DNA of 61,854 nt from a virus. The stretch covers positions 1 to 61,854 of IMG/VR virus record IMGVR_UViG_3300006071_000011, one strand, 5' to 3'. The notes under the pieces were generated by a model. The model did not search any database, was not told where the DNA came from, and was given only the letters and a program-made list of their open reading frames with translations. Of the stretch, positions 808-59,006 are shown piece after piece (the stretch's first letter is position 1; every line of letters starts with the position of its first letter). Position numbers and translations under genes: made by a program.

Positions 808-899
808 AGGTTCCGTAGACCATCGTGGTGTTTCGGCGCCACAGATGGAAGAGTTCGAGAACCAAGTAGAATAAACTTGCCAAAAAATCTCAAATATGT

Positions 900-907
900 T
901 ATAAATA
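900..907 (+). promoter_or_regulatory. T4-type late promoter (TATAAATA) upstream of tmRNA
   Basis: An exact TATAAATA, the T4 late -10 element, sits in the non-coding gap just before the tmRNA. Transcription would start about 10-13 bases downstream, at the expected start of the acceptor half. It suggests the tmRNA is made late, when virion proteins are being translated. Confidence 0.65.
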
Positions 908-914
908 TACTTGC

Positions 915-1153
915 TTAGGTCGTTGAGAACGGTAGAATAAGCAGGCAGGACCTGGGAGCGTTACCCAGCCGGTCCACCAAAGGACATTAAGGTGTCTTTT
1001 GGGGGCCGGAAGTAGGATCGACTGATGTGGTAAAGGCTGAAGGAGACCAAAAGCAATCGTAAATGCTAACGATAATTCAGCATATCAGGATCTTGCTCTA
1101 GCAGCATAATCCTACGGGCCGCCGGCGGCCTCGGAACAGAATGCCGGCACCTC
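915..1153 (+). ncRNA. ssrA: Circularly permuted two-piece tmRNA
   Basis: The acceptor half comes first and the coding half second, as in alphaproteobacterial split tmRNAs. The 3' acceptor strand CCGGTCC (969-975) is followed by encoded ACCA (976-979). It pairs with GGGCCGG (1003-1009) over 7 bp, with a G-U at the third pair, the alanyl-tRNA synthetase identity element. A T-arm of CTGGG/CCCAG with a 7-base loop precedes it (952-968). Between the halves, 977-1002 forms a 10-bp hairpin that processing would remove. After the acceptor strand comes GGATCGAC, like the conserved tmRNA D-region, then a tag frame ending at 1109 and a GC-rich palindrome (about 1119-1132) that could form a pseudoknot with GCCGGC downstream. 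Outer ends are approximate. The normal role is rescue of stalled ribosomes with SmpB. Confidence 0.93.
1065..1109 (+). other. tmRNA proteolysis-tag reading frame
   Basis: The frame from the likely resume codon GCT to TAA encodes ANDNSAYQDLALAA. The ANDN start is typical of alphaproteobacterial tags. The C-terminal ALAA is the kind of signal recognised by ClpXP/ClpA. The exact resume codon is inferred; an upstream in-frame GCA (1053-1055) would add AIVN. Confidence 0.85.
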
Positions 1154-1168
1154 ACAAAGGACACTAAG

Positions 1169-1300
1169 ATGAAAACAAAAAAGTTGATTTTAAAGTTCTA
1201 TCGTGCTATACTAGACAAAGATGCCAAGAAGGAGAGGAAGTTTTGGTTTAAACTCCTCAAGAAATCTTTCAAAGGTAAAAACACCCACGTAATCCGATAG
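1169..1300 (+). CDS. Small basic protein, 43 aa
   Basis: An ATG lies 8 bases after AAAGGA (1156-1161) and opens a 43-residue frame. It is rich in Lys and Arg with aromatic residues (KFYRAIL, RKFWFKLLKK). It lies directly after the tmRNA and ends 13 bases before the oxygenase gene, so it probably shares their transcript. No family is recognised. The charge suggests nucleic-acid or membrane contact, which is only inference. The good ribosome site and tight spacing argue that it is real. Confidence 0.55.
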   Translation: MKTKKLILKFYRAILDKDAKKERKFWFKLLKKSFKGKNTHVIR

Positions 1301-43415: not shown

Positions 43416-46400
43416 ATGCTATTACATGAACTATTATTAAAATCAAGTTCTGGAGGTTCTACTAAAAAAAATCTATTTACCTGGGGTCGTGGAACATCAG
43501 GAACTATTGGTTATGGAACTACTACTAGCTATTCATCGCCTGTTTTAATTGGAACAAGTAGTTGGTCTGTAGTCAGTGCAGGATTAAACGTTACAGCGGC
43601 AATTAGATCTGATGGTGCTTTGTTCACATGGGGTGCCACTAACAATTACACTTTAGGTCAAGGTTTACTTTTTATAGCAACAAAGGCTCCTTCTCCTGGT
43701 TCCACAAGCTGGACAGCTGTTTCTATCGGTTCATCAACTGGTTATGGAATAAAAACTGACGGAACACTGTGGGCATGGGGTTTTAATACTTATTACCAAT
43801 TTGGTAATGGAAACACTACATCAACTTCATCTCCAATTCAAATTGGAGTCGGAATGAGTTTTAAAGCTGTTTCCGGAGGTGACTCTCATGCCTGTGCAAT
43901 TGCATCAGATAATACTTTGTGGGGATGTGGTAATAACAATTCCGGTCAGTTAGGTTTAAATGCTGGTTACACACCAACACAGATAGGAAATTTAAGTTGG
44001 AAATCAGTATCTTCTGGCACTAGTCATACAATGGCAATAAGATCAGATGGTTCTTTATGGGGATGGGGTATTGGTAGTAGCGGTCAGTTAGGTGTTAATA
44101 ACACTTTAACGTATGCATCCCCTATTCAAATTGGATCAAGTTCATGGAAAGCTGTTTCTTGTGGAACATTACAAACATACGCAATTAGATCAGACGGAAC
44201 ACTGTGGGCATGGGGTAATAATAACGTATGGCAGCTTGGTAATGGTGTTAATACTAACTATTCATCTCCAGTCCAGATTGGAACAAGTAGTTGGTCGAGT
44301 ATAGCAGCCGCTAGTTCAACAACCGTCGGTATAACAACAACTGGTGCTTTATTTTTTTGGGGTTATACTACTTATACACCAACAAATTCATCATACGTTA
44401 CATTACCAACTCATGTTGGAACAAGTAGTTGGGTAATGGCAAGTGTTGGGGATAATACTGGTGGAACTTATGGGCATGCGATCAGGGTAGACGGTGCTTT
44501 ATTTGCTTGGGGAAGCCAAAGTTTTTATCCTACTCTCGGAACAAATAATACTACTTCATATTCATCGCCTGTTCAGGTTGGAACAAGTTCATGGAAAGCT
44601 ATAATGTCTGGTTTTAATAGTGCAATAGCATTAAGAGCAGATAATACAGTATGGACTTGGGGTTATGGTTCAGCTGGTGAATTAGGTAATAATAACACAA
44701 CGAATCAATCATCACCTGTTCAGGTTGGAGCAAGTAGCTGGGTGGCTATCGGATTAAGTAATACCGGAAGTAATTATGATAACGCACTTTTTGCGGTGAG
44801 GGCTGGTGATTTTAGTTTATGGGGTTGGGGTGCCAACATTTCTTATACAGTTGGTACTGGAACTAGTACTAATCAATCCTCTCCTGTACAAATTTCAACA
44901 GGAAATTTCAGTCAGCCAGCAGGTGTATATGTTATAGGAGATTTTAGAAATAGTGCTATTGCAGGAGCAATAAATTCTACTGGATCTTTATTTACATGGG
45001 GAGTTGGCGCTCAATTGGGATCTCCAGCAGGAACTACAATTCAAACATTATCTCAAATTGGTTTCAGTAGTTGGACAGCTGTCTCTTGTGGTTATTCATA
45101 TACAATGGCTATCAGATCTGATGGTGGTTTGTTTGCCACTGGAGCACAAGCAACATACGGTCAGTTAGGTACCAATGATTTGGTTAATAGGGGATCATTT
45201 TCGCAAATTGGAACAAGTTCATGGAAAGCTATTTCAGCCAGTTTTTGGGTTTCTTCAGCTATCAGATCTGATGGTGCTTTATTTACTTGGGGATACGGCG
45301 GTACTGGAACTTTAGGTACTAATAGCATAACGACTCAATCATCACCTGTTCAAATCGGAACAAGTAGTTGGACATCTGTGAGTGTTTCTTTATCAACAGT
45401 GATGGCCATCAGATCTGATGGTGCTTTGTTTGCGTGGGGAACCAATACATACGGTCAGTTAGGTACTAATAATGCTACTACATATTCATCACCTGTTCAA
45501 ATCGGAACAAGTTCGTGGAAAGCTGTATCAGTTCTTGGTGGTTATTCTAGTTTACTTCTAAGAACTGATGGATTGTTGTTTCAAACTTGCGCTATCAACT
45601 CAGCGGTAGGCGGTGGTGCTGGTATTTTTTCTATATCTTCTCCAGTACAAATAGGAACCTCCAGCTGGTCTGTGCTTCCAACTGGAGGTGGTTCAGGTAA
45701 TACTGATAATTTTTGTGGTGGTGGAGTTATTGATTCTTTAGGAGCTCTTTATACTTGGGGTGGTTATGGTGGTAATACGATTACAGTTGGAAGAATTATA
45801 CCTACTACAATAAACTCTCCAGTCCAGATTGGAACAAGTTCATGGAAAGCTGTTTCTATAGGACATAGCACAGCTTTAGCAATAAGTTCGGATAATACTT
45901 TATGGTCTTGGGGTTATACTACTCTTATATCAGGACAGGCATTTTCGGACGCTCCATACCAAATATCAAAAAGTAGTTGGACTTCTGTTGCGGCTGGTGC
46001 TTCTCATGTTGGTGCAATTAGATCAGATGGTGGTCTTTTTATGTGGGGATCCAACACAAACGGTTCGCTAGGATTAAACAGTACTTTAGTAGTTCAAACT
46101 CCAGTTCAAGTAGGAACAAATAGTTGGAAAGTTTTAGGATTAAATGGTAATAATGTTAGCGGAACAACAGTAGCAATTAGAGCAGATGGGACATTATGGG
46201 CATGGGGATATAATGTTTTTTATCAACTTGGTAATGGAAACACTACAGCAACTTCATCTCCAGTCCAGATTGGAACAAGTTCATGGAATGCTGTGTCATT
46301 AGGCCATGCGCATGTGCTTGGCGTAACTACTGATGGTTCTTTATGGGCATGGGGTACAAGTACTTATGGTGCTCTAGCAACTGATGTTACTGGATCTTTG

Positions 46401-47705
46401 GCTCAACTTGGAACTAACAGTTGGTCAGCAATTAGTTTAGGACTATATGCAAATTTTGCTATCAGAAACGATGGTGCTTTGTTTGGATGGGGTAACGGAG
46501 CATACGGGCAATTAGGACAGAATAACAATTTATCATATTATTCTCCTGTTCAAGTAGGTACTAGTAGTTGGAAATCAGTATCCGTTGGTTATTGTCATGT
46601 TTTAGCAATAAGAGCGGATAATACTTTATGGTCTTGGGGTTACAATGCAGGTGGAGAACTTGGTCAGAATATAGCACAATATACATATGTATCTTCTCCT
46701 GTCCAAGTAGGTACTAGTAGTTGGACTTCAATATCCACAGGTGTTAATCAATCCGCAGGAATTAGAAGCGGAGGAAGCCTATTTTCATGGGGTTACAATG
46801 CATCTGGAGCATTGGGTGTTAATACTGCAACTGCATTTTATTCATCACCTGTTCAGGTTGGAACTAGTTCTTGGACATTAGTGTCTGTTGGAAGTAGTTG
46901 TGCGCTTGCAATTAGAGCAGACGGGACATTATGGGGATGGGGTTATAATTTTTATAACACTCTAGGAACCAACAATGCTACTACATATTCATCACCTGTT
47001 CAAATTGGAACAAGTTCATGGAAAGCTGTTTCTTGTGGTGGCTTCGGTTCTTTAGGAATTAAATTAGATGGTACATTATGGGGATGGGGATATCAAGCTT
47101 ACTGGGGATATGGATATTTAGGTACTGGTAATCTCACCTCCTATTCATCACCTGTTCAAATTGGAACAAGTTCGTGGACTGCTGTTTGTATCCAAAACGG
47201 CAGTAGTGGAGATTATTCTAGTTGGATGTTAAGAATAGATGGTGTTTTATTTGGTACTGGTCTTAATGCATCTAGTGGATCTAATTATTTGGGAGGAACC
47301 GATACATCAACTTTTATTCTCAGTTCTCCAACACAAATTGGTACAGGGTTTAGCTTTATACCAAACTGCAACGGTGGTTCAACTGCTGCCGCAATTGGTA
47401 ACAATGGCGCACTATATACTGGTGGAGCAGCTTACACTGGAAATCCAGCAAGAGGAAGTACCATAACATCACCTACAAAAATAGGAAATAGTAGTTGGAC
47501 AGCTGTTTATGCTAGTCAATATTCTAGCTATGGTATAAGATCCGACAGTGCTTTATTTGTATGGGGTTATAATAGTTCTGGTTATGGAGAATTAGGTAAT
47601 GGAACTATTTCAGGAAACGTCTTTTCTCCTACGCAATTGGGAAGCAGTAGTTGGGCGGCTGTATCCGCTAGTTTCAGTTTTACAGCAGTTGGATTGACAA
47701 GATAA
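43416..47705 (+). CDS. Giant RCC1-repeat beta-propeller adhesin, 28 repeats
   Basis: 1429 residues. After ~20 residues the protein consists of RCC1/alpha-tubulin-suppressor repeats: L(W/F)xWGxNxxGQLGxxxxxxxSSPVQIGTSSWKAVSxGxxHxxAIRSDG. By eye I count 28 repeats of 45-58 residues, enough for four seven-bladed propellers. Most variation is at the loop before SSPVQ and after the VSxG strand. No signal peptide or catalytic motif is seen. It follows a fibre chaperone gene and ends the fibre block, so it is probably a virion adhesin. Alternatives (a host-directed effector) cannot be excluded. RCC1 family call strong. Confidence 0.88.
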   Translation: MLLHELLLKSSSGGSTKKNLFTWGRGTSGTIGYGTTTSYSSPVLIGTSSWSVVSAGLNVTAAIRSDGALFTWGATNNYTLGQGLLFIATKAPSPGSTSWTAVSIGSSTGYGIKTDGTLWAWGFNTYYQFGNGNTTSTSSPIQIGVGMSFKAVSGGDSHACAIASDNTLWGCGNNNSGQLGLNAGYTPTQIGNLSWKSVSSGTSHTMAIRSDGSLWGWGIGSSGQLGVNNTLTYASPIQIGSSSWKAVSCGTLQTYAIRSDGTLWAWGNNNVWQLGNGVNTNYSSPVQIGTSSWSSIAAASSTTVGITTTGALFFWGYTTYTPTNSSYVTLPTHVGTSSWVMASVGDNTGGTYGHAIRVDGALFAWGSQSFYPTLGTNNTTSYSSPVQVGTSSWKAIMSGFNSAIALRADNTVWTWGYGSAGELGNNNTTNQSSPVQVGASSWVAIGLSNTGSNYDNALFAVRAGDFSLWGWGANISYTVGTGTSTNQSSPVQISTGNFSQPAGVYVIGDFRNSAIAGAINSTGSLFTWGVGAQLGSPAGTTIQTLSQIGFSSWTAVSCGYSYTMAIRSDGGLFATGAQATYGQLGTNDLVNRGSFSQIGTSSWKAISASFWVSSAIRSDGALFTWGYGGTGTLGTNSITTQSSPVQIGTSSWTSVSVSLSTVMAIRSDGALFAWGTNTYGQLGTNNATTYSSPVQIGTSSWKAVSVLGGYSSLLLRTDGLLFQTCAINSAVGGGAGIFSISSPVQIGTSSWSVLPTGGGSGNTDNFCGGGVIDSLGALYTWGGYGGNTITVGRIIPTTINSPVQIGTSSWKAVSIGHSTALAISSDNTLWSWGYTTLISGQAFSDAPYQISKSSWTSVAAGASHVGAIRSDGGLFMWGSNTNGSLGLNSTLVVQTPVQVGTNSWKVLGLNGNNVSGTTVAIRADGTLWAWGYNVFYQLGNGNTTATSSPVQIGTSSWNAVSLGHAHVLGVTTDGSLWAWGTSTYGALATDVTGSLAQLGTNSWSAISLGLYANFAIRNDGALFGWGNGAYGQLGQNNNLSYYSPVQVGTSSWKSVSVGYCHVLAIRADNTLWSWGYNAGGELGQNIAQYTYVSSPVQVGTSSWTSISTGVNQSAGIRSGGSLFSWGYNASGALGVNTATAFYSSPVQVGTSSWTLVSVGSSCALAIRADGTLWGWGYNFYNTLGTNNATTYSSPVQIGTSSWKAVSCGGFGSLGIKLDGTLWGWGYQAYWGYGYLGTGNLTSYSSPVQIGTSSWTAVCIQNGSSGDYSSWMLRIDGVLFGTGLNASSGSNYLGGTDTSTFILSSPTQIGTGFSFIPNCNGGSTAAAIGNNGALYTGGAAYTGNPARGSTITSPTKIGNSSWTAVYASQYSSYGIRSDSALFVWGYNSSGYGELGNGTISGNVFSPTQLGSSSWAAVSASFSFTAVGLTR

Positions 47706-50667: not shown

Positions 50668-51478
50668 GCAACAATTCTACAGTCCTAACAGAACTCTTAT
50701 GACCATACTTTTTAGTAATATAATATCTAGGCTCAACCCAAATATCATTGATTGATTTTGGAATATCACTAAAAAATTCTTTATATTTGTTTTTAATAAA
50801 GAAAGCATTTGCTCCTGTAAAACTATTACAACATGCAAGAAAATAATTATGTTTTTCAAACAATTTAACATATGACATAAGAGAAGCACCAAAATAATCA
50901 TCATATTCCCATATTAGATTTTCATGATATTTAACTTTCCATTCAATGGGTGGTATAAATTTAGCGTTATATTCAACTACGAATACTTTAGGAGATACTC
51001 CAGATTGCAATAATCTCTCAATTAAATAATAATCATTACCTTCAAAATCAAAAGAAATAAAATCTGTTTCTTCTTTATTAATATATTTCAAACACTGTAA
51101 GTATGTTTCTAATACGTTATTTAATGTTATATGACGTTTAAAAAATGAAAATTTTGGATTTGCAGATTGTTCAATTTTAGGTAATATGTTTCCAGCGTCA
51201 ACCCAAAACCCTGACCAACCTAATCCAGCTAACAATAATGTATTACATTCTAAACCTGATCCTACTCCAAATTCAGCAAAAACTCCATTATCAACTCCTA
51301 TACGTTTCATAATCTCTTGTGTAATACCATCTTCGTCTGACTGACTGAAAGCCCTACGACCATAATGATTTAAAGGATTCTTAGATGTATTGGTTCTTTC
51401 ATATAACTTTAAGTCTCTTAAATCACTAACCATGTCAAACATATGACTTAAATAATTTTGCATATTTTCATCTAACAT
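50642..51478 (-). CDS. FkbM-like SAM-dependent methyltransferase
   Basis: 278 residues. FSQSDEDGITQEIMKRIGVDNGVFAEFGVGSG...NTLLLAGLGWSGFWVD is the FkbM-family pattern (SQ-GED-I, EFG-x-x-G, GW-x-G). DFISFDFEGNDYYLIERL is the following acidic block. These enzymes usually O-methylate sugars in surface glycans. It is the last gene of the seven-gene minus-strand operon; its start overlaps the preceding stop by 7 bases (ATGTTAG). Confidence 0.75.
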   Translation of the reverse strand: MLDENMQNYLSHMFDMVSDLRDLKLYERTNTSKNPLNHYGRRAFSQSDEDGITQEIMKRIGVDNGVFAEFGVGSGLECNTLLLAGLGWSGFWVDAGNILPKIEQSANPKFSFFKRHITLNNVLETYLQCLKYINKEETDFISFDFEGNDYYLIERLLQSGVSPKVFVVEYNAKFIPPIEWKVKYHENLIWEYDDYFGASLMSYVKLFEKHNYFLACCNSFTGANAFFIKNKYKEFFSDIPKSINDIWVEPRYYITKKYGHKSSVRTVELLLNNLNSCQ

Positions 51479-52152
51479 GTATATTCATCTTTCTCTCTTG
51501 GAACTATAGTAGAATCTTCATCGTTAAATTTATTTTCAAAAGCATATAATCCTTGATGAGTTATGTTATATAAATCTGCTTTCATAAATCTATCTGCAAT
51601 TGTCCATATACCACGCTTAAAAACATCTGATAACATATTCTTAGCAACTTGTGGATCTATACAATATGCATGTCCTTTATATATATAAAGATTATTCATT
51701 CCACCAGATCCATATATTGGAATATCTTCTATATTAGATCCTTTTTTTGCCCATATTTCACAACCAAGATATACAATAGAATTATAACTAGTTTTATTTT
51801 CAAACTTTTTTACCATTATAGCATCATGTTCAAGTATAACTATTGGTTGGTCTATCTCGACACATCTAGCCCATAAACTTAAATGACTAAGAAAACAACT
51901 AAGTTCACTTTTTGTCATATGATGATCTTGTATTTTCACCATTTTAAAAATGGGATTATTCTTAGAGTGTTCTGGTATTATTATTTCATCACCAGTTCCA
52001 TCAAATGCGTCCCATACTTGATATTGCATACCAACATTTTTACACGATTCTTGACATCTTTTTGAATATTTTTCGGACATATTATTACCCTTTATTGTAA
52101 TAATGTATGCTTTTTCAACATCTGTCCTATGCGAATAATATAAATTTAACAT
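51472..52152 (-). CDS. Glycosyltransferase family 25-like (LPS-type)
   Basis: 226 residues. KAYIITIKGN near the start, MTKSELSCFLSHLSLWARCVE and PIVILEHDAIM are the GT25 signature: start strand, SLS-H block and ExDA motif (here EHDA). GT25 enzymes add galactose or related sugars to LPS or, in animals, to collagen hydroxylysine. Start overlaps the upstream stop (ATGTTAA). It acts in the same operon as HldE/HldD. Confidence 0.82.
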   Translation of the reverse strand: MLNLYYSHRTDVEKAYIITIKGNNMSEKYSKRCQESCKNVGMQYQVWDAFDGTGDEIIIPEHSKNNPIFKMVKIQDHHMTKSELSCFLSHLSLWARCVEIDQPIVILEHDAIMVKKFENKTSYNSIVYLGCEIWAKKGSNIEDIPIYGSGGMNNLYIYKGHAYCIDPQVAKNMLSDVFKRGIWTIADRFMKADLYNITHQGLYAFENKFNDEDSTIVPREKDEYTC

Positions 52153-54178: not shown

Positions 54179-55334
54179 TCATATACTCCAATGTTTTAGT
54201 AGTAGAATATCCATCAACAAAAGGTAATATAACGACCTCAGCAAGATCATGCCCGACCACTTCTTCTTTAGTCTTATAATCACCACCTTTTGTTATAATG
54301 TCAGGCTTCAAATCTTTAATTATTTCATATGGTGTGTCACCATTAAAGATAATAACCTCATCAACACAATCAAGAGCCTCTAATACTCTCTTACGATCTT
54401 CCTGCTTATTGTGTGGTCTGACAGTGCCTTTTAGTCTAGCAACTGATTCATCTGAGTTTAAAGCTACAATTAACTTAGTTCCTAATTTTTTAGACTTTTG
54501 TAGATATTCAATGTGGCCACGGTGTAGAATATCAAAGCAACCGTTGGTGAATACTATCTTACCTTCAATCTCTCTTTTATCATCTTCGGTAATTGTATAG
54601 GTACCAAACTTGGTTACGGACTTAGCCGCATACTTGTTCGCAATATCACAGGCCTGATATATGTCTTTACCTTTTGCTAGGTAGTATGTCATAGCAGCAA
54701 TGAACACATCACCGGCGCCTGTCACATCAGATACTTGTAATCCTAGACCTGGAATTGTTGTATCACCATTTTCATTAATAATTCTAACACCTTTGCCACC
54801 CAAGGTTATCACAAAAGTTCCTATATCATAATACTTTAAAGCACCTTTTCCCTGTGGGCAGAACTGATAATATTCTTTCTCATTCATCTTGACAATATCA
54901 GCACCTTCATAATGACTGATATGCCTTTTAGGATCAACAATGACGATCTTACCATCTTGCTTCAGTTTATCAATAACTTCAGAACTATATGTCAAAATAC
55001 CCTTACCATAGTCGGAAAGGATGACATACTTGGTTTCTTCGGTAAATTCGGCAAGACATGGATCAACGGTGCTGGTCTTATCGGCATCCACACGGAACAT
55101 TATGTGGCCGTCACAGACATATCGTTTTTTGATAGAATAGTTTATTTTGTCACAGTGGTAATCAACAGAAGCACCAAGGGCCATTAGATTGTTATTGACA
55201 TTGGAAGCACCGCCAGAACGACTTTCTTCTCTCTCTATGTCAAAGATAGGAATAGGAGACTCCGGTGAAAACCTAGTCATTTTCCCATATATATAAATAT
55301 CGGTAATATGATCACCTATAAGACCAATTTTCAT
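54165..55334 (-). CDS. hldE: Bifunctional heptose-7-phosphate kinase/heptose-1-phosphate adenylyltransferase (HldE)
   Basis: 389 residues. A PfkB-type kinase fills residues ~1-255: GDHITDIYIYGKMTRFSPESP, RSGGASNVNNNL, and DVTGAGDVF with the GAGD catalytic motif. A nucleotidyltransferase follows: VFTNGCFDILHRGHIEYLQ with the HxGH motif, then LNSDESVARLKG. This is the HldE order. Start 55334 is chosen because GGAG lies 6-7 bases upstream; the ATG at 55346 lacks a site. It would give ADP-D-glycero-D-manno-heptose with a GmhB-like phosphatase. First gene of the minus operon. No T4 late promoter was found upstream, so it may be expressed early. Confidence 0.92.
   Translation of the reverse strand: MKIGLIGDHITDIYIYGKMTRFSPESPIPIFDIEREESRSGGASNVNNNLMALGASVDYHCDKINYSIKKRYVCDGHIMFRVDADKTSTVDPCLAEFTEETKYVILSDYGKGILTYSSEVIDKLKQDGKIVIVDPKRHISHYEGADIVKMNEKEYYQFCPQGKGALKYYDIGTFVITLGGKGVRIINENGDTTIPGLGLQVSDVTGAGDVFIAAMTYYLAKGKDIYQACDIANKYAAKSVTKFGTYTITEDDKREIEGKIVFTNGCFDILHRGHIEYLQKSKKLGTKLIVALNSDESVARLKGTVRPHNKQEDRKRVLEALDCVDEVIIFNGDTPYEIIKDLKPDIITKGGDYKTKEEVVGHDLAEVVILPFVDGYSTTKTLEYMNGDC
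55292..55299 (+). promoter_or_regulatory. Late promoter (TATAAATA) reading into the collagen-like gene
   Basis: An exact plus-strand TATAAATA lies inside the 5' end of the divergent hldE gene, about 90 bases before the 55390 start. A second candidate, ACTAAATA (55351-55358), sits 31 bases before that start and matches the NCTAAATA variant. Confidence 0.55.
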
Positions 55335-55389: not shown

Positions 55390-57138
55390 ATGTTCTTGTT
55401 TCCTATTACCAGACCAACAAAAATTATTAATATTAGTTCCGCGACTAATAATGTTAATCTCTACAATCAATCAGGTAGCCCATCCTACCCTGGTAATATA
55501 TTTGTTTTTATCAATGCTAACATAGGAAGTACCTCAACTTCAACACCTGCTTTACAGACAGGTTCCAGTTGGAGGCCAGGTACTCTAATTTATATTAAAA
55601 ATTCAGCAACCATAGCAGGTGCAGCTGGTACTACAGGTGCTACAGGCACACCAGGTGCTCCAGGATCTGTAGGTTCTACAGGAAATCCAGGTGCTACAGG
55701 TAGTTCAGGATCTGTAGGTACACCAGGTGGTACAGGGTCACACGGTCAACCAGGTGGAGCAGGTCGTCACGGTAACCCAGGTGGTACAGGAGCACACGGT
55801 CAACCAGGATACACAGGAGCACACGGTCAACCAGGTGGTACAGGTGCATTTGGTGCTGGTGGTGGTGGAGGTCACGGACCCGGATGGTTCGGTGGAGGCC
55901 ACCATGGTGGAGGCGGTACTCCAGGAGGCACAGGAGGTACAGGTGGTCACGGTCAACCAGGTGGTTATGGTCAACCAGGTGGCCGAGGTGGTTGTGGTCA
56001 ACCAGGAGGTGCAGGCCAACCAGGAGGTTCAGGCGGCCTAGGTGGTTGTGGTCAACCGGGAGGTTCAGGTGTCCGAGGTGGATGTGGTCAACCAGGAGGT
56101 GCAGGAGGCACCGGGCAACCTGGTGGTACAGGAGGCACCGGGCAACCTGGTGGTGTATCACTTAAAGCATGTGCCGTATATGGTGTTAGTATAATTCTCA
56201 ACAATACATCAACAATAAGTGGAGGATCATCTGGTCCAGGAGGTTCTGGAGGATCATCTGGTCCTGGTGGATCTGGAGGACCAGGTGGAGCTGCGGGTCC
56301 GGGAGGTCCAGGTGGTTCAGGTGGAAATGCCGGACCTGGTGGCGTAGGCGGTTATGCTGGATCAGGTGGTTCAGGTGGAAATGCAGGACCAGGTGGTTCT
56401 GGAGGAAGTGCCGGACCAGGTGGTTCAGGTGGAAATTCTGGACCAGGAGGACCTGGAGGCGGCGGCGGCGGAGCTTCCGGTCATAGAGGCGGCGGTGGAG
56501 GTGGTGCAGGTATACCTCCAGGCCCAGGCGGTAGTGCTTGTGGTGGTCCTCATGGACCTCCCGGTCATTCTCATCAAGGTGGTGGATGGGGTCAGCACCA
56601 ACCAGCAGCACATTATAGCGCAAATCATCAAGGTGCTGGCCAAGTAAATTGTGCCCATTGTGGATATAATGGGCACCACGCTTCAGGATGTTATCACGGA
56701 GCAAGTCATCAACCTGCTAACCATCACGGATGCAGCCATCATTTTGGTAGATCCGGTCCAAATGGTGGTGGTGGAGGCGGTGACTTAAATCAACCAGGAT
56801 ATCCAGGAGGCGGTGGTGGTGGAGGACCAGCTGGTCATTCTGGTCAACCTGGTCCAGCCGGTTCAGCCGGATCAACAGGTGGGGCCGGGCATTCAGGTCA
56901 ACCAGGAAATGCTGGATCCCCAGGATCAGCAGGAAATTCTGGGCCATCAGGTCAACCAGGAAATGCCGGTTCACCAGGAGCAACAGGGCATCCAGGAAAT
57001 GCCGGTTCTCAAGGATCACCAGGTTCACCAGGATCTTCGGGAGCATCAGGTTCACCAGGTACTCAAGGATCCGCAATATGTGGTAACTCAAATATTAAGT
57101 ATATAAATATGGGTACAATCAACGGACCTAAGGTCTAA
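55390..57138 (+). CDS. Glycine-rich collagen-like adhesin with a zinc-knuckle-like motif
   Basis: 582 residues. The N-terminal ~75 (IINISSATNNVNLYNQSGSPS...TLIYIKNSATIAG) is a beta domain of the type that precedes polyglycine regions in phage tail adhesins. From ~77 the sequence is (G-X-Y)n with Pro mostly just before Gly (GTPGAPG, GHGQPGGAG, GNPG), then Gly-rich loops, and ends with another collagen-like tract and a beta tail (NIKYINMGTING). Residues 421-434 read CAHCGYNGHHASGC inside a His-rich stretch. It could form collagen triple helices and/or a polyglycine-II sandwich like T4-family gp38 adhesins. Likely receptor-binding. Confidence 0.78.
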   Translation: MFLFPITRPTKIINISSATNNVNLYNQSGSPSYPGNIFVFINANIGSTSTSTPALQTGSSWRPGTLIYIKNSATIAGAAGTTGATGTPGAPGSVGSTGNPGATGSSGSVGTPGGTGSHGQPGGAGRHGNPGGTGAHGQPGYTGAHGQPGGTGAFGAGGGGGHGPGWFGGGHHGGGGTPGGTGGTGGHGQPGGYGQPGGRGGCGQPGGAGQPGGSGGLGGCGQPGGSGVRGGCGQPGGAGGTGQPGGTGGTGQPGGVSLKACAVYGVSIILNNTSTISGGSSGPGGSGGSSGPGGSGGPGGAAGPGGPGGSGGNAGPGGVGGYAGSGGSGGNAGPGGSGGSAGPGGSGGNSGPGGPGGGGGGASGHRGGGGGGAGIPPGPGGSACGGPHGPPGHSHQGGGWGQHQPAAHYSANHQGAGQVNCAHCGYNGHHASGCYHGASHQPANHHGCSHHFGRSGPNGGGGGGDLNQPGYPGGGGGGGPAGHSGQPGPAGSAGSTGGAGHSGQPGNAGSPGSAGNSGPSGQPGNAGSPGATGHPGNAGSQGSPGSPGSSGASGSPGTQGSAICGNSNIKYINMGTINGPKV

Positions 57139-57148
57139 AGGGGATAAA

Positions 57149-57610
57149 ATGAACGTATTTTTTAGAATTATAGATGTTTTCCCAGAGGAAAATACATTTA
57201 CTGTTAGATATTGGAGTGATAAGGTTTCTGAAAATACACTATCAACCTCCATTGATGTTCGTGGGGATATTATGTTAACCAGTAATGGTTATCCTATTCA
57301 TTGTTCTACCGACACAAATTTAACAATATATGATACTGCAAATACTTCATCTAATGATATTTTAAATCTTATACAATCAGCAACTCCTTTTTGGGCTATT
57401 ACACCAAAAGTTAATACAGTTGTTAATTTTACAAATGTTAATACATTTTTATACAATGTAAATAGTTATTCAGCAAATGATGCTAACAATCTAATACTTA
57501 AAACACAACTTGATGAAATTAATGATGTGGCAAATAAATGTATGCCAAATGTGGTAAACAACGTAATAAATTACATGATATCAAACAAAATGGTGGTGGC
57601 CAATACATAA
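57149..57610 (+). CDS. Conserved hypothetical protein between the adhesin and oxygenase
   Basis: 153 residues. FFRIIDVFPEENTFTVRYWSDKVSENTL... followed by a Thr/Asn-rich beta region and a helical end (TQLDEINDVANKCMPNVVNNV). Proteins starting with such an IIDV...TVRYWSD stretch occur in the fibre region of T4-like phages, but I know no function. AAAGGGG precedes the start; the stop overlaps the next start (TAATG), so it is coupled to the oxygenase. Confidence 0.6.
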   Translation: MNVFFRIIDVFPEENTFTVRYWSDKVSENTLSTSIDVRGDIMLTSNGYPIHCSTDTNLTIYDTANTSSNDILNLIQSATPFWAITPKVNTVVNFTNVNTFLYNVNSYSANDANNLILKTQLDEINDVANKCMPNVVNNVINYMISNKMVVANT

Positions 57611-58215
57611 TGATTTCAAATGATCCTGTGAATTTTAGAAAAAATATACCTAGTTATATTTTGTGGGAAAATTTATTTGTTGAAAATGAATTGAATGACA
57701 TTGAAAAATTATGTCAAAAAGAAGAATTACATAGATCCACAACAGTCGGTAAAGGTGAAGATTGTGAACAGCATAGAAAATCTAAGGTAAAATTTATCAG
57801 CAGAAATGAAGAGAATTATTGGATTTTTGATAAATTTAACGGTGTGATTGATAGAATAAATTCAACTTATTTTGGATTTGACCTTTATGGTTATAAAGAT
57901 TTTCAATACACTGTTTATGATTCTTTGAATAAAGGAATGTATGACTGGCATATGGATACGGTATTAGGTGATAATGATTGTACCGATTCTGTCAGAAAAT
58001 TAACTTTGGTTATGTTACTATCAGAACCACAAGTTCATTTCTCAGGGGGTGAATTTCAAATAAACCTTGGAATGGAAGAAGATGCAAGAACACCTGAAAT
58101 GACTAGAGGTAAGATTATAGCATTTCCATCTTTTCTGATCCATAGAGTGAAACCGGTACACTTAGGTATTCGTAAGTCAATTGTTATATGGGTAGAAGGT
58201 CCTAAGTTCAGGTAA
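57610..58215 (+). CDS. Prolyl-4-hydroxylase/PKHD-type 2OG-Fe(II) oxygenase
   Basis: 201 residues from the ATG overlapping the preceding stop; the frame is open further upstream only as a shadow of the previous gene. MYDWHMDTV supplies the Fe-binding HxD, FPSFLIHRVKPV the distal His, and HLGIRKSIVIWVEGP the Arg that binds 2-oxoglutarate. VMLLSEPQVHFSGGEFQI is typical of the PKHD/P4H branch. The gene is next to a collagen-like protein rich in X-Pro-Gly, the classic P4H target. Family strong; target inferred. Confidence 0.85.
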   Translation: MISNDPVNFRKNIPSYILWENLFVENELNDIEKLCQKEELHRSTTVGKGEDCEQHRKSKVKFISRNEENYWIFDKFNGVIDRINSTYFGFDLYGYKDFQYTVYDSLNKGMYDWHMDTVLGDNDCTDSVRKLTLVMLLSEPQVHFSGGEFQINLGMEEDARTPEMTRGKIIAFPSFLIHRVKPVHLGIRKSIVIWVEGPKFR

Positions 58216-58256: not shown

Positions 58257-59006
58257 ATGGCTCAGTCAGCACCAGCATCTAGACAAGAACTTAAAGATTT
58301 CTGCCTACGTCAGCTAGGTTACCCTGTAATCACAATTAACGTAGATGATGTCCAGGTTGAAGATGCTATCAATCTTGCCTTTCAGTATTGGCAAGAGTTT
58401 CATTATGATGGAACCGAAAGAACATATCTAAAGCATCTTATTACCGATACCGATATAACTAATCAATATATCACAATGAATCCTAATGTCATTGGCGTAA
58501 CCAACATATTTCCAGTTGGTGGTACGAACCAGTCAATGACCTTCTTTGACCTTCGATACCAGTTACGCCTTAACGACCTTTGGGACCTTTCATCAACCTC
58601 TTATGTAAACTATGCTCTAACTATGCAGCATATGCGTACCTTAGACATGATCTTCTCTGGTGAAACTCCTGTCCGTTTTAATCGTGTTAGTGAAAACCTT
58701 TATATTGACTGGGATTGGTCATCAGACATTACCTCAGGCCAGTGGATTGTTGCTGAAGGATACATTATTACTGATCCAGAAGCATATAATAAGGCTTATA
58801 ATGACCGTATGTTAAAAAAACTAGCAGTAGCATATGTTAAAAAACAATGGGGTAACAATCTTAAAAAGTTTGGTGGTATGCAGTTACCAGGCGGTATTAC
58901 AATGAACGGTCAACAAATCTTTGAAGAAGCTGTAAATGAGATTAAAGAGATTGAGCAATACATTGAGACAACATACCAGGCGCCGCCTCAGTTTCTTGTA
59001 GGATAA
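58257..59006 (+). CDS. 13: Neck protein, gp13-like
   Basis: 249 residues (T4 gp13: 309). SRQELKDFCLRQLGYPVITINVDDVQVEDAINLAFQYWQEFHYDG is the standard start of cyanophage-type gp13. NLYIDWDWSSDITSGQWIVAEGY and LAVAYVKKQWGNNLKKFGGMQLPGG follow. gp13 closes the head-tail neck with gp14. AAAGGG precedes the start. It is one base from gp14. Confidence 0.88.
   Translation: MAQSAPASRQELKDFCLRQLGYPVITINVDDVQVEDAINLAFQYWQEFHYDGTERTYLKHLITDTDITNQYITMNPNVIGVTNIFPVGGTNQSMTFFDLRYQLRLNDLWDLSSTSYVNYALTMQHMRTLDMIFSGETPVRFNRVSENLYIDWDWSSDITSGQWIVAEGYIITDPEAYNKAYNDRMLKKLAVAYVKKQWGNNLKKFGGMQLPGGITMNGQQIFEEAVNEIKEIEQYIETTYQAPPQFLVG

Follow-up and report, generated by a model that had tools for sequence, protein, structure and literature searches.

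Animal collagens with their prolyl 4-hydroxylases (P4H), and the collagens and hydroxylases of mimivirus, combine a Gly-X-Y protein with a hydroxylase of the same superfamily as the oxygenase described here. The chlorella virus PBCV-1 encodes one collagen P4H, vCPH (PDB 5c5t), which acts on a peptidyl-prolyl substrate and anchors 2-oxoglutarate (2OG) through a Lys; we know of no collagen gene linked to it. PBCV-1 and mimivirus are the viral precedents, and we found no report of a tailed-phage case in the literature. The Bacillus anthracis P4H, which is prokaryotic, acts on prolines of (PPG)n in the X as well as the Y position (PMC8968730, excerpt). In the available text of a paper on prophage collagens, bacteria and viruses are said to lack a prolyl hydroxylase for Y-position Pro (PMC3368898). 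P4H is described as an abundant viral auxiliary gene with a 'cryptic' use (PMC9301287, excerpt), and roles connected with DNA repair or with nitrogen status have been assigned to cyanophage 2OG oxygenases (PMC3037559, excerpt). For Pam3, gp24 is a fibre with a Gly-rich domain and gp25 its chaperone, with a beta N-domain and a helical C-domain; the available part of that description mentions no hydroxylase (PMC9608196).

The window analysed here is one stretch of 61,854 nucleotides (virus record IMGVR_UViG_3300006071_000011). The source phage is T4-like, and three genes lie side by side in it, 5' of the neck genes gp13-15. Like the animal and mimivirus systems, the locus encodes a Gly-X-Y protein and a hydroxylase-like enzyme; different from them, it belongs to a tailed phage of a bacterium, its collagen-like protein has a Gly-rich core and no Y-Lys sites in the tracts, and no secretory pathway is involved.

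Gene organization of the locus

The features are listed in Table 1. As the earlier note had described, the oxygenase gene follows two genes after the collagen-like gene and is joined to the p153 gene by an overlapping start and stop (TAATG at 57608-57612). The ORF listing also gives one longer oxygenase ORF starting at 57538, which gains no support from the alignment of relatives. The candidate late-promoter motif TATAAATA occurs at 55292 and 57102; the window has 11 copies where 10.25 would be expected, so the motif provides no evidence for promoters at these positions.

Table 1. Coordinates of the genes and protein features in the window
Feature	Position	Strand	Remarks
GT25-type enzyme, divergent operon	51472..52152	-	PF01755, E 2.9e-16
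Collagen-like / Gly-rich protein gene	55390..57138	+	582 aa; PF01391, GXY run
Conserved N-domain, residues 1-76	55390..55617	+	58-78% identity to four relatives
Collagen tract 1, residues 77-154	55618..55851	+	Pro at Y, X without Pro
Central poly-Gly region (GGX, GPG), residues 155-475	55852..56814	+	inner 'ILNNTSTISGG' motif and His/Cys-rich stretch
Collagen tract 2, residues 476-562	56815..57075	+	Pro mostly at Y
C-terminal cap 'GNSNI.YIN.GTINGP'	57076..57138	+	common to relatives
p153 partner gene	57149..57610	+	153 aa
2OG-Fe(II) oxygenase gene, prolyl-hydroxylase fold	57610..58215	+	201 aa; PF13640, predicted-model fold matches
Iron ligands H114-x-D116	57949..57957	+	present in 69/69 family representatives
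Iron ligand H178	58141..58143	+	present in 69/69 family representatives
R188, presumed 2OG anchor	58171..58173	+	present in 69/69 family representatives
gp13-like neck protein	58257..59006	+	phrog_211, E 2.1e-39

The collagen-like protein

The collagen-like protein matches Pfam Collagen PF01391 at 46.5 bits, which exceeds the curated cut-off of 27.2. Its longest unbroken Gly-X-Y run is 31 triplets; among 2000 shuffles of the same protein the maximum was 15. The two clean tracts contain 55 triplets, 17 with Pro at Y and 3 with Pro at X, in agreement with the Y-position Pro that had been read from the sequence. According to Table 4 of PMC3368898, Y-Pro is 7.4% in prophage, 9.3% in viral, 3.7% in Gram-positive and 33-42% in human collagens; the phage tracts resemble the human level. 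Unlike ordinary collagen, the middle of the protein is poly-Gly with one His/Cys-rich stretch, and residues 279-362 carry Pro in the X register. The N-domain, presumably the attachment or trimerisation end, gave no convincing match in the PDB sequence search.

The oxygenase and its partner p153

The oxygenase matches PF13640 at 46.4 bits (cut-off 27), and the HxD...H and Arg motifs claimed for it are kept in every family representative. Animal-type collagen P4H anchors 2OG by a Lys; in all 69 representatives residue 188 is Arg, the anchor that PHD2 and PiuC use. In its predicted model (pLDDT 86), the fold most resembles those of peptidyl-prolyl hydroxylases, namely HIF PHD2 (Z 20.3, rmsd 3.0, 183 aligned), the EF-Tu-bound P4H of P. 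putida (Z 20.0, rmsd 3.0, 179 aligned) and PBCV-1 vCPH (Z 19.1, rmsd 2.6, 169 aligned, 20% identity); OGFOD1 (Z 17.8) is also among the nearest folds. Like vCPH, it is virus-coded and would act on a peptidyl-prolyl substrate; different from it, the host of the phage is not a eukaryotic alga. The best sequence relatives among solved structures are the PKHD-type PiuC/YbiX proteins (3dkq, E 8.5e-10; 9ghl, E 5.3e-8). However, their fold score (Z 18.0) is below that of PHD2, and the best of four PiuC/YbiX NCBIfam PRK05467 models gave 43.7 bits, far under its cut-off of 143. The sequence match to the B. anthracis P4H, which together with BclA makes another comparable pair, is weak (3itq, E 0.007).

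The p153 protein has one beta part at the N-terminus and a helical C-terminus (predicted model, pLDDT 83). Searches of Pfam and PHROG gave no match, its profile has no significant match among PDB sequences, Foldseek of the model against the PDB gave nothing significant (best E 1.0), and alignment of the model to 998 chains reached a top Z of 3.2; one BFVD match, the uncharacterised phage protein A0A6J5LAS4, was found at E 3e-6. The fibre-like protein and p153 resemble Pam3 gp24 and gp25, as these are described in the available text, and the likeness is one of domain layout. Possibly, p153 is a fibre-assembly or folding chaperone for the collagen-like protein.

Linkage of the three genes in relatives

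The p153-anchored set comprises 48 contig groups, with readable upstream DNA in 45, and a Gly-rich or collagen-like gene adjoins p153 upstream in all 45. The oxygenase is present in the retrieved locus DNA of 41 of the 48 groups: directly downstream on the same strand in 19, on the same strand but further off in 5, and on the opposite strand in 17. Among the groups reached via p153 scans, 33 of 40 carry it; in one set so do all seven p153 records longer than 100 kb, and two further p153 loci (records of 149 and 169 kb) have it too. Using the gp13-like gene as the anchor for empty-site comparison, we found both components in 5 groups, neither in 11, and a contig end in 2, with zero discordant groups. 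In one of the loci (L039), a similar divergent operon lies directly beside gp13 and the module is absent. By sequence, then, the collagen-like gene, p153 and the oxygenase gene form one conserved, portable three-gene unit of T4-like phages.

Proline content of the Gly-rich part tracks the oxygenase

Composition, GC and tree tests covered the 37 of 48 p153 groups in which the Gly-rich ORF is uncut by the contig end; where a group has two Gly-rich genes, one was counted. The median Pro content of the homologous Gly-rich proteins is 8.55% with the oxygenase (n=30) and 1.66% without it (n=7; p=0.0003), the latter seven groups being a small set and all fragments of at most 84 kb, one of which (L138) is cut at a critical place. 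Among 19 residues, Pro is the best separator of the two sets, and Gly content is equal. The Pro difference is unexplained by GC, and is confined to the Gly-rich part; the N-domain, p153 (5.2 versus 5.7%) and other ORFs show none. Phylogenetic regression on the p153 tree relates Pro to the oxygenase at p<=1e-5; Val also differs in this test (p 0.0004). Since the Pro content of the Gly-rich part tracks enzyme presence, Pro is the likely substrate residue.

Hitch-hiking would be another source of such a pattern: fibre genes and oxygenases both gather in variable regions, as cyanophage 2OG oxygenases often lie close to fibre genes, and Pro may simply vary by lineage. Phage relatedness was corrected only in part, and independent-pair testing was left with just 3 pairs whose branches were well supported, which is an insufficient number. 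However, gene order is kept in 19 groups, the genes are jointly absent at gp13, the oxygenase-lacking groups are scattered over the p153 tree (6 changes versus a shuffled mean of 6.6), and the regression remains significant. We regard hitch-hiking as very improbable.

For the X/Y test, 5 oxygenase-bearing groups with fewer than 6 clean triplets were left out, leaving 25; Y-Pro is missing in 4 of these. With L138 excluded, pooled Y-Pro is 0.186 with the enzyme and 0.045 without, and pooled X-Pro is 0.135 and 0.045, respectively. Specificity for Y-Pro only is thus not supported, as X-Pro is likewise lower without the enzyme; the apparent Y-specificity came from one pooled count that included L138. 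The oxygenase-bearing groups have Pro-Gly in common, and many of these dipeptides fall within GGPG poly-Gly tracts. The earlier note had proposed that the phage may hydroxylate, and thereby stabilise, its own collagen-like receptor-binding protein. The conserved unit, the modelled prolyl-hydroxylase fold and the Pro content support this proposal in part; Y-Pro as a conserved feature does not stand. From the sequence comparisons, the oxygenase most likely hydroxylates the Pro-Gly prolines of the neighbouring collagen-like protein.

Other residues and other substrates

2OG oxygenases of this fold class act on several residue types, and the enzyme could hydroxylate Lys, Asn, Asp or His of the Gly-rich protein instead. 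The phrog_61 profile unites GT25 and 2OG regions, as in lysyl hydroxylases, and some relatives have Lys at Y. A GT25-type enzyme does lie in the adjacent operon, as noted earlier, and the collagen-like protein is poor in Lys as stated (5 in total). The tracts hold no Lys at Y, Lys-Gly does not differ with the enzyme across the family (p 0.54), and Pro is the one residue for which the raw difference is strong. The Lys/GT25 route, already called the weaker link, therefore gains nothing and is rejected both for the window and as a rule for the family; hydroxylation of a residue other than Pro is highly unlikely.

The enzyme might also be a prolyl hydroxylase of some other protein, such as p153, another virion protein, or host EF-Tu or a ribosomal protein, the collagen link being mere operon neighbourhood. 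The Pseudomonas P4H and OGFOD1, whose substrates are host factors of this kind, are among the closest folds. The gp47-gp46 interval holds a related oxygenase in 17 of 69 representatives, as judged by neighbour-gene length and Pfam-checked in one (L066), and the fragments searched show no collagen. One cellular relative (L235) adjoins housekeeping genes, and for all 64 cellular relatives the flanking DNA, out to about 5 kb, lacks a GXY run of 8. The complete cyanophages P-SSM4, S-CAM22, S-SCSM1 and Sf-CH1b have relatives of 31-39% identity and no PF01391 match. These bacteria, cyanophages and the gp47/gp46 context contradict any rule that the oxygenase means collagen. The 735-kb phage LR756501 matches PF01391 72 times and has a single PF13640 oxygenase; in the two stretches covered (together about 60 kb), the ORFs place their Pro at X and hardly any at Y, and the oxygenase is not close to them. 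However, action on another protein fails to predict Pro enrichment limited to the Gly-rich part, and the Pro content of p153 does not differ with the enzyme. We consider this reading unlikely, and hydroxylation of the collagen-like protein the better one.

Proposed mechanism and implications

In the scheme we favour, the collagen-like gene would encode a fibre-like protein with its conserved N-domain, Gly-X-Y tracts, poly-Gly core and C-terminal cap, and p153 would be a partner dedicated to it that perhaps helps it to fold as a chaperone. Using Fe(II), 2OG and O2, the peptidyl-prolyl hydroxylase would modify Pro in Pro-Gly contexts; this would happen inside the host cell, on chains that have just been synthesised and are still unassembled. 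Hydroxylation may make the triple-helical and/or polyglycine-II parts more stable, and the product would then take its place in the virion. More tentatively, and with some doubt, we propose that one portable adhesin-partner-hydroxylase module of tailed phages makes 4-hydroxyproline in the infected bacterium, both at Gly-X-Pro triplets and at Gly-Pro-Gly of the polyglycine-II core. To our knowledge, hydroxylation of polyglycine-II material is so far undescribed.

With putative substrate and enzyme linked, the question is directly testable. If true, the locus would provide one short enzyme for producing hydroxylated collagen in bacteria, and would represent a collagen-maturation system run by a phage. 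For part of the phage 2OG oxygenases, a function in the maturation of fibres can thereby be proposed, and the locus suggests that bacterial viruses, like animals, may chemically harden their own 'collagen'.

Organization of the three-gene module

The record that carries the module, a 61,854-base virus record, belongs to a T4-like phage. The collagen-like gene, the gene of its 153-residue partner (p153) and the 2OG-Fe(II) oxygenase gene lie on the plus strand upstream of gp13, gp14 and gp15, and a minus-strand operon runs divergently. The oxygenase gene had been noted earlier two genes past the collagen-like gene with a start-stop overlap, and this holds; it shares TAATG with the p153 gene.

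Features of the window
Feature	Position	Strand	Remarks
tmRNA gene	886-1200		ARAGORN flag tmRNA*; tag ANDNSAYQDLALAA
Tail-fibre-assembly-like gene	42912
1429-aa protein gene	43416-47705		PHROG 'regulator of chromosome condensation' families
GT25 protein	51472-52152		phrog_61, 13-167
Collagen-like gene	55390-57138	+	582 aa; PF01391 Collagen, 46.5 bits
His/Cys-rich stretch	56600-56760		middle of the Gly-rich protein
p153 gene	57149-57610	+	153 aa; no family match
Oxygenase gene	57610-58215	+	201 aa; PF13640, 46.4 bits; phrog_61, 437-631
gp13-like neck protein	58257		phrog_211
gp14	59008
gp15	59895

Because the GT25 protein (glycosyltransferase type, divergent operon) and the oxygenase match separate parts of the 689-position phrog_61 profile, GT25-2OG fusions are suggested to exist in phages. 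The 1429-aa gene adjoins the tail-fibre-assembly-like gene. The ARAGORN star may denote a permuted tmRNA; if it does, the gene would be consistent with descent from Alphaproteobacteria or cyanobacteria.

In the collagen-like protein, a 76-aa N-domain is followed by two Gly-X-Y tracts (residues 77-154 and 476-562) that flank a poly-Gly core, which includes the His/Cys-rich stretch; a short cap closes the C-terminus. Its longest uninterrupted Gly-X-Y run is 31 triplets, against a maximum of 15 among 2000 shuffles. The tracts with Pro at Y claimed in the earlier note are real in this protein: of the 55 triplets in the two clean tracts, 17 have Pro at Y and 3 have it at X (binomial p 0.0026). In this the tracts are unlike the non-animal collagens in Table 4 of PMC3368898, where Y-Pro is 7.4% (prophage), 9.3% (viral) and 3.7% (Gram-positive); human collagens in that table reach 33-42%. 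They also differ from the huge collagens of phage LR756501, which in two stretches read have Pro at X and hardly any at Y. That 735,411-bp uncultured phage record (LR756501.1, without annotation here) contains a single PF13640 oxygenase and 72 matches to Pfam Collagen, the latter in ORFs of up to 3488 aa. The His/Cys-rich stretch, for which metal binding is possible, has His-rich counterparts in three compared loci (L004, L008 and L013) and is scarcely present in two others (L007 and L014).

Structure predictions of the oxygenase and p153

All 69 representatives of the oxygenase family have H114, D116, H178 and R188, in agreement with the HxD...H and Arg motifs read earlier. The AlphaFold model (pLDDT 86.4) has the fold of peptidyl-prolyl hydroxylases, which are its best matches in structure comparison; the reaction itself is only predicted.

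Fold matches of the oxygenase model (Z differences within 1 count as ties)
Structure	Z	rmsd	Aligned
PHD2	20.3	3.0	183
P. putida P4H	20.0	3.0	179
PBCV-1 collagen P4H	19.1	2.6	169
PiuC	18.0	3.7	174
OGFOD1	17.8	2.6	174

By sequence, the nearest solved structures are PKHD/PiuC (3dkq, E 8.5e-10), yet the oxygenase falls far below the PKHD/PiuC NCBIfam cut-off (43.7 versus 143 bits).

The p153 model (pLDDT 83) has a β N-terminal part and a helical C-terminus, with no significant PDB match by fold or sequence. In architecture, and in following a fibre-like protein rich in Gly, it resembles the chaperone gp25 of Pam3, as far as the excerpt of PMC9608196 describes it; by this analogy, p153 may act as a similar chaperone.

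Conservation of the module among phages

IMG/VR was scanned with the oxygenase, gp13, p153 and the collagen N-domain, and near-identical contigs were merged into groups. Among 48 p153-anchored groups, part of which were found via the oxygenase, a Gly-rich gene lies at most two genes upstream of p153 in all 45 with readable upstream DNA, and the oxygenase is in the fetched locus of 41 (19 immediately downstream and 5 at a greater distance, all on the strand of p153, and 17 on the opposite strand). The 40 groups that p153 scans recovered give 33 with the oxygenase and 38 with the Gly-rich gene. Whole-record searches of 40 records found p153 in 19. The oxygenase is present in 13 of these 19, among them all 7 above 100 kb, and also in the 149-kb and 169-kb records that contain two further p153 loci. 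Since every p153 record lacking the oxygenase is ~84 kb or less, some may be incomplete.

At gp13, the oxygenase and collagen-like genes are gained or lost as a unit. Both occur in 5 of 18 gp13-anchored groups and neither in the visible DNA of 11 (at least 2.3 kb in 8 of these); none is discordant, and in 2 the oxygenase is present and the contig ends too early. In locus L039, gp13 is directly adjoined by a divergent operon resembling that of the window, with a 393-aa gene that starts much like its window counterpart, and the module is absent. The module gene order is also found away from gp13 (for example, loci L010, L012 and L013).

Proline content and oxygenase presence

Gly-rich proteins with complete ORFs were compared between oxygenase-positive (n=30) and oxygenase-negative (n=7) groups. 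Pro ranks first of 19 residues in separating them (median 8.55 versus 1.66%, Mann-Whitney p 0.0003, uncorrected), and Pro-Gly per 100 aa is 5.0 versus 1.3 (p 0.0004), whereas neither Gly content (0.41 in both) nor Lys-Gly (p 0.54) separates them. Pro likewise shows no difference in the N-domain (5 versus 5), p153 (5.2 versus 5.7%) or the remaining ORFs in these loci (3.56 versus 3.23%). GC content was considered as the cause and rejected, as it does not account for the effect. With the p153-scan groups only, p is 0.0007, or 0.00005 without L138, a locus whose DNA stops just behind p153. The oxygenase-negative groups are scattered on the p153 tree (6 changes versus a shuffled mean of 6.6), and the Pro effect survives phylogenetic regression (p ≤1e-5 at lambda 0.5 and 1), in which Val differs too (p 0.0004). 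A more stringent test on independent pairs could draw on 3 pairs, too few to bear on the question.

As a general feature, Pro specifically at Y fails: among the 25 oxygenase-positive groups that have 6 or more clean triplets, 4 lack it altogether, and Pro at X is likewise lower where the enzyme is absent. The shared trait is therefore better stated as Pro preceding Gly, often with two glycines ahead of it (the 30 oxygenase-positive proteins contain 275 GG-PG sites).

Oxygenases outside the module

By context, the 69 representatives comprise 42 in the module, 17 at gp47/gp46 (assigned from neighbour lengths, with a Pfam check in locus L066 only) and 10 others. In L066, L075, L016 and other T4-like loci, the oxygenase lies between gp47- and gp46-like genes, a non-fibre context; the gp47/gp46 fragments searched contain no p153 and, save for the record of L016, no collagen match. 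Four complete cyanophages with 31-39% relatives lack any PF01391 match; in another, S-8S56, PF01391 is matched. In this Synechococcus phage (OQ504984.1; L198, L206), PF13640 is matched 12 times at E≤0.01, in some cases next to tail-fibre genes, and one fibre ORF has a 55-triplet, GQK/GPK-rich Gly-X-Y run. Other collagen matches do occur in four oxygenase-carrying records above 200 kb that lack p153, and the tracts read near the oxygenase there have Pro at X. Around cellular relatives (64 loci, closest 53%), no GXY run of 8 lies within about 5 kb; one of these relatives, in alphaproteobacterial contig L235, adjoins cytochrome cbb3 genes. Contigs L233 and L235, assigned to Rickettsiales and other Alphaproteobacteria, encode oxygenases 45-53% identical to the phage enzyme and are a possible cellular source of it. 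The enzyme family therefore predates the module and is more widespread.

In the open-licence papers searched, we found no report of a phage that encodes a collagen together with a prolyl hydroxylase for it, and the parts of PMC9611531 and PMC5749712 consulted describe no phage case. In the excerpts available, viral use of P4H is termed cryptic (PMC9301287), cyanophage 2OG oxygenases are linked to nitrogen status or DNA repair (PMC3037559), and a review covers B. anthracis P4H and mimivirus hydroxylation (PMC8968730). Taken together, we consider it the probable mechanism that a co-encoded enzyme hydroxylates prolines in the Gly-rich/collagen-like protein of the phage.
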